From: Candidatus Yonathbacteria bacterium
Lineage (GTDB): Bacteria; Patescibacteriota; Minisyncoccia; Phycocordibacterales; JACNGX01
Length of the DNA stretch: 45,328 bases
Reading direction: 5' to 3'
Assembly (NCBI GenBank): GCA_013334825.1
Contig: JAAXWR010000001.1
Span: 404,731-450,058, forward strand
The translations under genes were made by a program, and so were the position numbers. Shown one piece after another: positions 32,469 to 37,686 of this stretch. Each line of letters starts with the position of its first letter. Positions within the stretch are counted from its first letter, which is position 1. The notes beneath the pieces were generated by a model. The model had not been told where the DNA came from. It saw nothing but the letters and a program-made list of their open reading frames with translations, and ran no database searches.

Positions 32469-32497
32469 TTGACAAAGTATACACAATATGCTATACT
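32469..32497 (+). promoter_or_regulatory. Array promoter P1
   Basis: TTGACA (32469-32474), 17 bp, TATACT (32492-32497), with an extended -10 TG (ATGC before the hexamer). Confidence 0.8.
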
Positions 32498-32544: not shown

Positions 32545-32573
32545 TTGACAAATAATTCAACATCTGCTATAAT
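32545..32573 (+). promoter_or_regulatory. Array promoter P2
   Basis: Consensus TTGACA (32545-32550), exact 17-bp spacer, TATAAT (32568-32573), with an extended -10 TGC. Upstream words match those of P1 (GTGCGGAAA, TCTGAG, AAATGCTTGACAAA), so the two promoters are duplicates of one module. Confidence 0.9.
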
Positions 32574-33000: not shown

Positions 33001-33120
33001 ATTGTTCTTTGTTAAATATGAAATATAAAATATGAATAAAAAAACCTATTGAACATCATGTACAGCGTATGGGTGACGAGTAATTTTATACTTACGACTC
33101 GTCCCCCGCACGCTGTACAT
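32948..33120 (+). promoter_or_regulatory. Array leader 1: hairpin A, boxA-like, hairpin B
   Basis: Pairing TTCTC (32948-32952) / GAGAA (32997-33001) encloses hairpin A (32955-32995). The boxA-like TTGTTCTTTGTTAAA lies at 33002-33016. Hairpin B (33058-33120) has outer arms ATGTACAGCGT / ACGCTGTACAT and inner GACGAGT / ACTCGTC. Confidence 0.8.
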
Positions 33121-33403: not shown

Positions 33404-33568
33404 AGGGAAGGGTATCGGATCACACCGACCCCTTCCCTCTCTTATTCAGACCATGAGTCAATCATTCGTGTTCTGAAAGAGAGTCTGTTCTTTAATAACG
33501 CCTGTCTATTTCAAAATGACGAAACGGAATGATATATTTCAATTATTTATTTCGTTTCGTCGTTTTGA
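33404..33568 (+). promoter_or_regulatory. Array leader 2: terminator-like stem, hairpin A, boxA-like, hairpin B
   Basis: Terminator-like stem AGGGAAGGG / CCCTTCCCT (33404-33438). Pairing CTCTC / GAGAG encloses hairpin A TTCAGA...TCTGAA (33445-33477). The boxA-like CTGTTCTTTAATAA (33485-33498) is the copy closest to the enterobacterial boxA TGCTCTTTAACA. Hairpin B, TCAAAATGACGAAACG and its imperfect inverse, spans 33511-33568. Confidence 0.8.
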
Positions 33569-33716: not shown

Positions 33717-33952
33717 GGGAGATGTGTTACGTTACAGCGTAAACATCTTCCTCCCATTTCAGGACACGAATAAACCTTCGCGTTTTGAAACAGGGATTTG
33801 TTCTTTAGAAACTAAAATAAAAAATATTAAACAAAAAATAAAAAACTCCCCATTGGAACAATGACGGAGCAGATGAGTGAATTATTGCTATACACACCCA
33901 TCCGCCGTATCGCTGTTTTGTATGGCGAAATCTTATTGCGCGCGTAGCGGAT
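33717..33952 (+). promoter_or_regulatory. Array leader 3
   Basis: Terminator-like stem GGGAGATGTGTTACG / CGTAAACATCTTCCTCCC (33717-33755). Hairpin A TTTCAGGAC...GTTTTGAAA (33757-33790) lies between CCC and GGG tracts (TCCC / GGGA). The boxA-like TTTGTTCTTTAGAAAC is at 33797-33812. A weaker hairpin B region ATCCGC...GCGGAT spans 33900-33952. The 3' part is longer and more AT-rich than in the other leaders. Confidence 0.65.
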
Positions 33953-34486: not shown

Positions 34487-34651
34487 AGGGAAGTCAGATC
34501 GGTACATCCGACGACTTCCCTCCTTTTTTCAGACCATAAGTATTTCTTGTTGTCTGATAGAGGTTTTGTTCTTTGAAAAAGTTTCTCCTGTTGTTGTTCA
34601 ACTTCGCGTACGGCATCGGGTCGGTGATGGTCATCGGTCGGATGCTGTACG
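34487..34651 (+). promoter_or_regulatory. Array leader 4
   Basis: Terminator-like stem GGGAAGTC / GACTTCCC with TCCTTTTTTC tail (34487-34529). Pairing CCTC / GAGG encloses hairpin A TCAGAC...GTCTGA (34529-34557). boxA-like TTGTTCTTTGAAAAA at 34566-34580. Hairpin B CGTACGGCATC / GATGCTGTACG (34607-34651) is identical in leaders 6 and 8. Confidence 0.85.
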
Positions 34652-34695
34652 GGAAGACAAAAAATCGCCGCGCGTTCGGCAAAAAAGGAGGAATT

Positions 34696-34857
34696 ATGAA
34701 TATATTTCTTGCGGGGCTTTGTGCCCTCGCAGCGGTGGCATTGTTGGTCGCTGCCGCCACCGTCGGCACGGGGATGCTCGTGCTGACACAGATGCAGACG
34801 GCCGCGGCATTCGTTGCTGCCGCCGTGTTGCTCGCCAAGGTGGCAAACAGATTATGA
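34696..34857 (+). CDS. Array gene 4, small two-helix membrane protein
   Basis: I do not recognise the family. Only 53 residues, nearly all hydrophobic: MNIFLAGLCALAAVALLVAA (first helix), then TVGTGMLVLTQMQTAAAFVAAAVLLAKVANRL (second helix, basic end). The start is fixed by a strong AAGGAGGAATT 6-11 nt upstream. A hairpin-like or pore-like small membrane protein is possible (holin-, toxin- or pilin-type), but nothing in the sequence decides. Frames that begin further upstream run through the repeated hairpin B and are not coding. Confidence 0.7.
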   Translation: MNIFLAGLCALAAVALLVAAATVGTGMLVLTQMQTAAAFVAAAVLLAKVANRL

Positions 34858-34864
34858 CGGGTTC

Positions 34865-35012
34865 GAGGAGCTACCCATAATACAAAGCTCCTCACTCTAT
34901 CCGGATGTGTGTCCGGACTGATGAGCCGAAAACGGCGAAAGAGCTTGTTCTTTTTATTATCGCGTCCTTCTGCGGGGAGATACTCTCTCCCCTTTCTCCC
35001 CACAGAAGGACG
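34865..35012 (+). promoter_or_regulatory. Array leader 5, with a hammerhead ribozyme in place of hairpin A
   Basis: Terminator-like stem GAGGAGCT / AGCTCCTC (34865-34893), hammerhead core (34895-34943), boxA-like TTGTTCTTTTTATTA (34945-34959), and hairpin B CGTCCTTCTG-GGGGAGA / TCTCCCC-CAGAAGGACG (34963-35012). Confidence 0.82.
34895..34943 (+). ncRNA. Type III hammerhead ribozyme
   Basis: All invariant positions are present. Stem III is CTCT / AGAG; the cleavage triplet is CTA, with the scissile bond after A34899. Stem I is TCCGGA / TCCGGA around TGTGTG. Then CTGATGA (34918-34924), stem II GCCG / CGGC with an AAAA loop, and GAAA (34937-34940). The short open stem III makes it type III. Stem III is the same pyrimidine/purine pairing that encloses hairpin A in the other leaders. 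Cleavage would release the RNA just upstream of the boxA-like element of gene 5. Self-cleavage is inferred from the consensus, not shown. Confidence 0.82.
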
Positions 35013-35052
35013 TGAATCAATAATAAAAATAGGTGCTAGAAAGAGCAAAAAA

Positions 35053-35286
35053 ATGAAAATAACAATAAGCACGAGCCATAAACTCGACGCTTGGCAGATG
35101 AAAATGATCTGCCGAATTCTGAGTGTCCGGCTCAACGAGGCGCAAAGGCAGTGTCTCGTATCAATCGCCGAAGCTTTAGAAGATGCGACGGCATATCTCC
35201 CGGTGAGACGAAAAGTCCACCGGCGGTGGTTTTCTCGAAAGGAGGATCAGGTTATCGATGTTCTTTTCGACATGAAGAACTCCTGA
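35053..35286 (+). CDS. Array gene 5, small hypothetical protein
   Basis: I do not recognise it. 77 residues: MKITISTSHKLDAWQMKMIC, RILSVRLNEAQRQCLVSIAE, ALEDATAYLPVRRKVHRRWF, SRKEDQVIDVLFDMKNS. It is mixed alpha/beta with a basic patch (PVRRKVHRRWFSRK) that could bind nucleic acid. No membrane segment. The Shine-Dalgarno is weak (AGG/GAAAGAG 8-12 nt upstream). It follows the only leader with a hammerhead ribozyme, so its mRNA may begin at a self-cleaved 5'-hydroxyl end. Confidence 0.68.
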   Translation: MKITISTSHKLDAWQMKMICRILSVRLNEAQRQCLVSIAEALEDATAYLPVRRKVHRRWFSRKEDQVIDVLFDMKNS

Positions 35287-35293
35287 ATTTTTC

Positions 35294-35460
35294 GGAGAAA
35301 CATGCGCCCCCAAGGCCCATGTTTCTCCCTTTTGTTCGGATGACAAACATATCGTTTGTCGTTCGATTGAGGATTTTGTTCTTTGAAAAAGTTTCTCCTT
35401 TGTTTTTTCTGTTCGCGTACGGCATCGGGTCGGTGATGGTCATCGGTCGGATGCTGTACG
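35294..35460 (+). promoter_or_regulatory. Array leader 6
   Basis: Terminator-like stem GGAGAAACATG / CATGTTTCTCC with CTTTTGTT (35294-35336). CTC / GAG pairing around hairpin A CGGATGACAAAC-ATAT-CGTTTGTCGTTCG (35337-35365). boxA-like TTGTTCTTTGAAAAA (35376-35390). Hairpin B, identical to leaders 4 and 8 (35416-35460). Confidence 0.85.
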
Positions 35461-35506
35461 GGAAATATATCAACAACAAAAAACGCCCTTTCGGGCAGGA
35501 GGAACA

Positions 35507-35864: not shown

Positions 35865-36017
35865 GGGAGACTTGCGACGAAACACAAGGCAAGTCTCCCC
35901 TTATTATTGAGCATTTCTTTGCGAAGGAATGTTCATAGTGGGATTGTTCTTTGAAATATGCTCTATTATCACATACGGCATTTAGGTGAAAAATCTTTTT
36001 CGCTTAAATGCTGTATG
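35865..36017 (+). promoter_or_regulatory. Array leader 7
   Basis: Terminator-like stem GGGAGACTTGC / GCAAGTCTCCC (35865-35899). CCC / GGG pairing around hairpin A TGAGCATT...AATGTTCA (35908-35935). boxA-like TTGTTCTTTGAAAT (35944-35957). Hairpin B CATACGGCATTTA / TAAATGCTGTATG (35972-36017), a compensated relative of the GTACGGCATC stem. Confidence 0.83.
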
Positions 36018-36427: not shown

Positions 36428-36590
36428 GGAGGCAACGTGCTATGGTTCACGCACGTTCCTCCCCTTTGTTCGAATGACAAACATATCGTTTGCCATTCGA
36501 TAGAGGTTTTGTTCTTTGAAAAAGATTCTCCTGTTGTTGAGTTCGCGTACGGCATCGGGTCGGTGATGGTCATCGGTCGGATGCTGTACG
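36428..36590 (+). promoter_or_regulatory. Array leader 8
   Basis: Terminator-like stem GGAGG-AACGTGC / GCACGTT-CCTCC (36428-36462). CCTC / GAGG pairing around hairpin A CGAATGACAAAC-ATAT-CGTTTGCCATTCG (36471-36499). boxA-like TTGTTCTTTGAAAAA (36509-36523). Hairpin B identical to leaders 4 and 6 (36546-36590). Compared with leader 6, two wobble pairs of hairpin A become Watson-Crick pairs. Confidence 0.85.
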
Positions 36591-36656
36591 GGAAGAAAAA
36601 TATCAACAACCGCTGCGAAAATGCAGCACATCTACCGCTTTAGCGGAGGAGGAATT

Positions 36657-37527: not shown

Positions 37528-37556
37528 AATATGGGCGGCGCGAAGCGCCGCCCATA
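37528..37556 (+). terminator. GC-rich hairpin before rpsA
   Basis: ATATGGGCGGCG / CGCCGCCCATAT around CGAAG, followed by TGTTCTATTG; similar in type to 18479-18511. Confidence 0.6.
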
Positions 37557-37686
37557 TTGTTCTATTGTGTATTCCAACTATCCATGCTATTGTACATCCA
37601 TTACCAGCGGAATGCGCGAAGTAACCCTCCTGTCCGACTCCCTATACGACACCATCGGCACGAGACCCTCGCACACATACCGATTC

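Follow-up and report, generated by a model that had tools for sequence, protein, structure and literature searches.

The window (the whole stretch of DNA that was analysed, 45,328 nucleotides from a Candidatus Yonathbacteria genome) contains an array of small open reading frames (ORFs), and all features of it described below lie on the plus strand. Two tandem sigma-70 promoters are located upstream of the array (32469-32497, matching 11/12 consensus positions, and 32545-32573, matching 12/12), and a 14-bp terminator-like hairpin (37528-37558) is located at its end; a consensus scan of this strand found no terminator-like site in the intercistronic leaders and one after the last gene. The ORFs have codon-like periodicity (lag 3, not lag 5). 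No significant PHROG or Pfam match was obtained for the seven ORFs, nulls that neither support nor exclude a prophage origin of the array. Seven of the eight leaders share one layout: a hairpin just past the stop codon (hairpin B), a second hairpin on a short basal helix (hairpin A), and a boxA-like TTGTTCTTT (33002-33011, 33485-33494, 33798-33807, 34566-34575, 35376-35385, 35944-35953, and 36509-36518). Three leaders (34568-34700, 35378-35480, and 36511-36620) also share a nearly identical ∼20-bp hairpin after boxA (CGTACGGCATC...GATGCTGTACGGG), which looks as if leaders may have been copied between units.

The remaining leader, in which an earlier reading of the sequence (hereafter the sequence-only reading) had placed a hammerhead ribozyme between genes 4 and 5, lies by ORF count between a hydrophobic 53-residue ORF (34696-34857; codon-like 3-base periodicity, no Pfam family above cut-off) and a 77-residue ORF (35053-35286; codon-like periodicity, with a match to DUF2664 at E = 0.0018, below cut-off). 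Its hairpin B (GAGGAGCT...AGCTCCTC; 34865-34893, from folding) is separated by 1 nt from stem III of a type III hammerhead (34895-34943), which is followed by a boxA-like TTGTTCTTTT (34945-34954), identified by motif match, and by a long hairpin that folds between boxA and the next gene (approximately 34955-35035). Comparison of folds shows that, within this unit (34858-34954), the hammerhead occupies exactly the place of hairpin A in the other leaders, and the claim that its stem III is position-equivalent to the pairing that encloses hairpin A held for all seven. The further claim that the ribozyme has replaced hairpin A cannot be read as a direction from one genome, and other genomes have a ribozyme at nearly every leader. 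The possibility that the other leaders are degenerate hammerheads was rejected (≤7.3 bits on the plus strand).

All elements of the hammerhead core named in the sequence-only reading are present, as identified from the core, the helices, and a covariance model. The 5′ strand of stem III (CTCT, 34895-34898) pairs with AGAG (34940-34943), with support from covariation in relatives. Stem I, claimed as TCCGGA/TCCGGA, is one pair longer, that is, a 7-bp hairpin (TCCGGAT, 34900-34906, with GTCCGGA, 34911-34917) closed by a T-G pair under a GTGT loop (34907-34910). The catalytic core CTGATGA (34918-34924) is followed by stem II (GCCG, 34925-34928, with CGGC, 34933-34936; loop AAAA, 34929-34932) and by GAAA (34937-34940), the last A of which pairs within stem III. 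Both core segments satisfy the type III consensus CUGANGA...GAA(A), the cleavage triplet CUA (34897-34899, with A34899 as position 17, H17) satisfies the NUH rule, and the three helices are arranged as required, I and II being closed by loops and III open. The pairs A15.1-U16.1 (A34940-T34898) and G10.1-C11.1 (G34925-C34936) are invariant in 46 relatives. The type III topology and a new 5′ end at 34900 are thus borne out, with the cut predicted at 34899^34900, between A34899 and T34900; cleavage itself remains an inference.

A generic scan for hammerheads on both strands of the 45 kb (core, three helices of ≥3 bp, and H17) found this place only, its second output line being that core read in another register. 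Against the Rfam model RF00008 (Hammerhead_3), the check that the sequence-only reading had proposed, 34895-34943 scores 28.2 bits (E = 2.3e-4 per genome), the top match in its own genome; an Rfam scan at the gathering score reported no hammerhead because 28.2 bits falls below the cut-off of 48.5 bits. A covariance model built from 30 relatives, none of them from this genome (model R2), scores the copy at 34895-34943 with 67.8 bits (E = 1.5e-21), and the runner-up elsewhere in the window reaches 10.9 bits. A chance match was rejected on the basis of the single scan place, the covariation, the pairing of helices left free in the search described below, and the held-out score. Matches of the leader hairpin to miRNA families were below cut-off and were set aside as hairpin artefacts.

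GTDB genomes were searched with a pattern in which the core and the two loops, I and II, were fixed and the helices were left free. At least 115 stretches were returned: 85 from named Patescibacteria/CPR, 28 unnamed, and 2 others, a Polynucleobacter and a Henriciella MAG. Among unique matches, stem II is formed in 125/125, a 7-bp stem I in 115/125, and a stem III with 4 bp or more in 113/125, compared with none in a slid control. The helices covary very strongly: across a chosen set of 46 sequences, paired cells make up 98.4%, and 283 double changes are seen versus 79 in shuffles; it should be noted that the stems were part of the selection of this set. With a first model, 73 of 297 genomes of the same order (25%), from 60 of its 165 genera, have a copy at E ≤ 1e-4, as do 44 of 380 genomes in a sample of the phylum (53 of 380 at E ≤ 0.01), that is, about 12%-14%. 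In a control phylum, 0 of 378 genomes have a copy, apart from the centre genome that was picked for its match. The training set of this first model included two copies from the source genome and some others, and most of the order-level matches lie outside it.

The recurring design has a 7-bp stem I with a GUGU loop and a 4-bp stem II with an NAAA loop. Both loops are conserved across copies whose stems differ, which is consistent with a possible tertiary contact between loops I and II; the collection pattern itself, however, required both loops in most of the sequences. We conclude that, on the structural criteria examined, 34895-34943 is a genuine type III hammerhead of a Patescibacteria-rich subfamily, with self-cleavage inferred from sequence alone. 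Scores against RF00008 are 33-48 bits for the relatives and 28-48 bits for the subfamily overall, and since these lie under the 48.5-bit gathering score, automatic annotation misses the subfamily; at this cut-off, bacterial hammerheads in large numbers go unseen. Loss of the core from all related arrays, which had been named as a refuting outcome, did not occur: relatives carry the core, and in three loci (L073, L075, and L055) a hairpin, a hammerhead, and a boxA are found in nearly every intergenic region, making the window array, with a hammerhead in one of eight leaders, a mixed case.

Analysis of the surroundings of these hammerheads reveals a module with a fixed order: the stop codon of a gene, a hairpin flush with stem III, the hammerhead, about 5-15 nt, boxA (TGTTCTTTGA), and the next gene, which begins shortly after boxA. 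An unprompted k-mer analysis of the region downstream of Patescibacteria hammerheads returned TTCTTT, GTTCTT, TCTTTG, and CTTTGA as enriched. Allowing up to 2 mismatches, TGTTCTTTGA is found within 45 nt downstream of 32 of 136 Patescibacteria hammerheads, compared with 1-5 in control windows, and of 2 of 128 hammerheads from viral contigs; of the 31 order-level hammerheads that had not been used in training, 17 are followed by a boxA, compared with 0-1 in controls. In many relatives, the hammerhead is accompanied by no site that can be recognised as a boxA. A flush upstream hairpin (−9 kcal/mol or better, ending ≤2 nt from stem III) is found at 59 of 136 Patescibacteria hammerheads versus 18-35 in shifted windows, and at 94 of 128 in viral contigs versus 10-17. 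The nearest upstream and downstream genes mostly share the strand of the hammerhead. Only tiny clusters were obtained in a search for protein families recurring beside hammerheads, and so the ribozyme goes with a position, not with a gene.

The leader motif, TTGTTCTTT followed by G, A, or T, matches the boxA consensus and also the boxA of the source genome's rRNA: in the 16S rRNA leader, GGCTCTTTGACA stands after the promoter. NusB is encoded in this genome. On these grounds we regard the motif as a boxA-like antitermination site; binding of NusB/S10 and antitermination are inferred. The boxA-like motif, the abutting hairpin, and the phylum-wide arrangement were all absent from the sequence-only reading, and its proposal that the ribozyme cleaves the polycistronic RNA is supported as an inference, not shown.

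In the explanation that we consider most likely, with a probability of ∼0.7 for the explanation as a whole, the hammerhead would cut an antiterminated polycistronic RNA into hairpin-ended messages. The two strong tandem promoters would transcribe the array as one long RNA, and boxA would load NusB/S10 onto RNA polymerase, which would explain how the polymerase passes a series of hairpins. The ribozyme would then cut co-transcriptionally at 34899^34900. The upstream message would be freed with hairpin B (34865-34893) as its predicted 3′-end hairpin and a tail of ∼6 nt, an end resembling that left by an intrinsic terminator, made without termination; the downstream RNA would start with a 5′-OH, the end chemistry described for the downstream hammerhead product (PMC10250234), and would keep boxA at a distance of ∼45 nt from this 5′ end. 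Where a leader has hairpin A instead, that hairpin would probably play an equivalent role by way of a protein nuclease, or may act as a boxB-like element. Cleavage, antitermination, and protection of the message are all inferred in this scheme. A bolder extension, that Patescibacteria express accessory gene arrays in the manner of rRNA (strong tandem promoters, a boxA that suppresses termination before every gene, and self-cutting hammerheads that leave every message with a 3′ hairpin like that of a terminator), with 3′-end formation uncoupled from termination and independent of nucleases and a boxA complex near each new 5′ end, is one that we lean slightly against.

Parts of this scheme have precedents. 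The window copy shares its core, three helices, open helix III, NUH triplet, and closed loops I and II with the RF00008 hammerheads of satellite RNAs and viroids, but it is chromosomal, bacterial, and intercistronic, and its stems I and II and their loops have one fixed design. Clustered prophage hammerheads, which likewise lie several at a time between genes of a polycistronic RNA, were proposed to cut that RNA into single-gene messages, so the principle is already known; they cleave in vitro, and those of A. tumefaciens also cleave in E. coli (Perreault et al., 2011; PMC3088659). The hammerheads described here differ from them in occurring phylum-wide in Patescibacteria chromosomes and in their association with an abutting 3′ hairpin and with a boxA downstream, features that the 2011 paper is not known to report. 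The strong tandem promoters, the boxA upstream of units, and a single long RNA that is processed recall rrn antitermination (boxB-boxA-boxC, NusB/S10), whereas in the window the units are protein-coding, boxA is repeated before each gene, and cutting would occur by ribozyme or at hairpin A and not by RNase III around rRNA. A search of the open-access literature returned no paper in which "hammerhead ribozyme" occurs together with "Patescibacteria" (neither most preprints nor subscription papers were covered). The spread of the subfamily across the phylum, and its association with boxA and an abutting 3′ hairpin, appear to be new. The role of hammerheads in bacteria is an open question, and the recurrence of one design between genes across a phylum, with the 3′ hairpin and often a boxA placed around it in constant order, yields a concrete role that can be tested: formation of messenger 3′ ends inside an antiterminated transcript. 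The module points to a means by which a long RNA could be divided into messages for single genes with no protein enzyme involved.

Several features weigh against this explanation. Stem III has just 4 bp, and in nearest-neighbour folding of the isolated 51 nt the active fold is not favoured (−17.6 versus −17.7 kcal/mol); in a 97-nt context, the probability of stem III is near 0 owing to competing pairings, although tertiary contacts are outside the folding model. The A at H17 is the rarest choice in relatives (TC 97, TT 30, TA 15). A hammerhead stands in only one of the eight leaders of the window, none was found in the one genome of the same genus that was searched, and the case against our explanation also includes the absence of any cleavage, transcript, or RNA-seq data.

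Two alternatives are unlikely but keep some support. In the first, the ribozyme serves the 5′ side, either giving a leader with a defined 5′-OH that resists 5′-monophosphate-dependent decay or clearing upstream RNA from boxA, and the 3′ hairpin is incidental. The usual start of boxA 5-15 nt past the ribozyme, with the next gene soon after, speaks for this; against it, the hairpin that abuts the ribozyme on its 5′ side accompanies it more generally and occurs also in viral contigs that lack boxA. In the second, the element is an inactive or nearly inactive relic, derived for instance from a phage, and kept as a structured spacer equivalent to hairpin A. Its occurrence in a single leader, the commonness of the subfamily in viral contigs, the competing folds, and a U4-to-C core change in the second copy in the genome are all in favour, whereas the window core is intact while the stems of relatives vary freely with compensation, and decay would strike the core too. 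That the ribozyme serves to process an array of non-coding or guide RNAs, as VIPR arrays are processed, is very unlikely. Such hammerhead-interspersed arrays have been reported in a 2026 preprint (PMC13142463), with small-RNA sequencing reported as confirming them, and resemble the window in that natural hammerheads separate the array units; the same subfamily also separates 5-nt-periodic non-coding units in two loci (L014 and L043, below). The units of the window, however, are coding ORFs with 3-base and not 5-base periodicity and without tandem 5-nt repeats, and a VIPR array in the window was rejected. Finally, an attC-like folded single-strand recombination site of gene cassettes with a chance likeness to a hammerhead is all but excluded, since, despite the stem-loops found in cassette-array fashion in each intergenic region of the array, the invariant bases are exactly the catalytic bases of hammerheads, the helix lengths fit hammerhead geometry, and the elements lie mostly between same-strand genes, in the sense of the genes.

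In the IMG/VR viral contigs (L118-L237), hammerheads of the same design have a flush upstream hairpin in about three-quarters of cases and no boxA, and they often lie 20-40 nt past the upstream gene; one such locus was compared with annotated phages and gave no match. Proteins like STIV B116 (PF08960, a family that takes its name from a protein of an archaeal virus) are encoded before Patescibacteria hammerheads in two loci, above cut-off in L008 and below it in L092.

The second hammerhead in the source genome (G000:C2:126384-126434, minus strand; L269 14385-14435 (−)) is a weaker Rfam match with identical dimensions, the same GTGT and NAAA loops, and the U4-to-C change in the core. A flush hairpin precedes it, a degenerate boxA follows it, and it lies in a different array with boxA-like sites; the ∼500 nt after it contain no convincing ORF and may be a non-coding RNA. 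In Ca. Parcubacteria S40-23 (JANLIU010000041.1; L014 2470-6760 and L311 1685-6750), non-coding units are set apart from one another by ten hammerheads, and these units are clearly periodic at 5 nt (lag 5, z = 6.8; lag 10, z = 5.8). The array is flanked by a small protein on one side, with a glycine-rich motif that we take to be RAMP-like (no Pfam match), and by a type IV DinG-like helicase on the other (PADLOC, E = 1.3e-40). This is probably a VIPR locus with a hammerhead-interspersed array, which would link the same ribozyme subfamily to the newly reported guide-RNA arrays of this kind. A second, similar locus in Ca. Kaiserbacteria (MFLS01000002.1; L043 2600-6340) has four hammerheads, 5-nt periodicity (z = 5.2 at lag 5), and a helicase to which the one in L014 is related.
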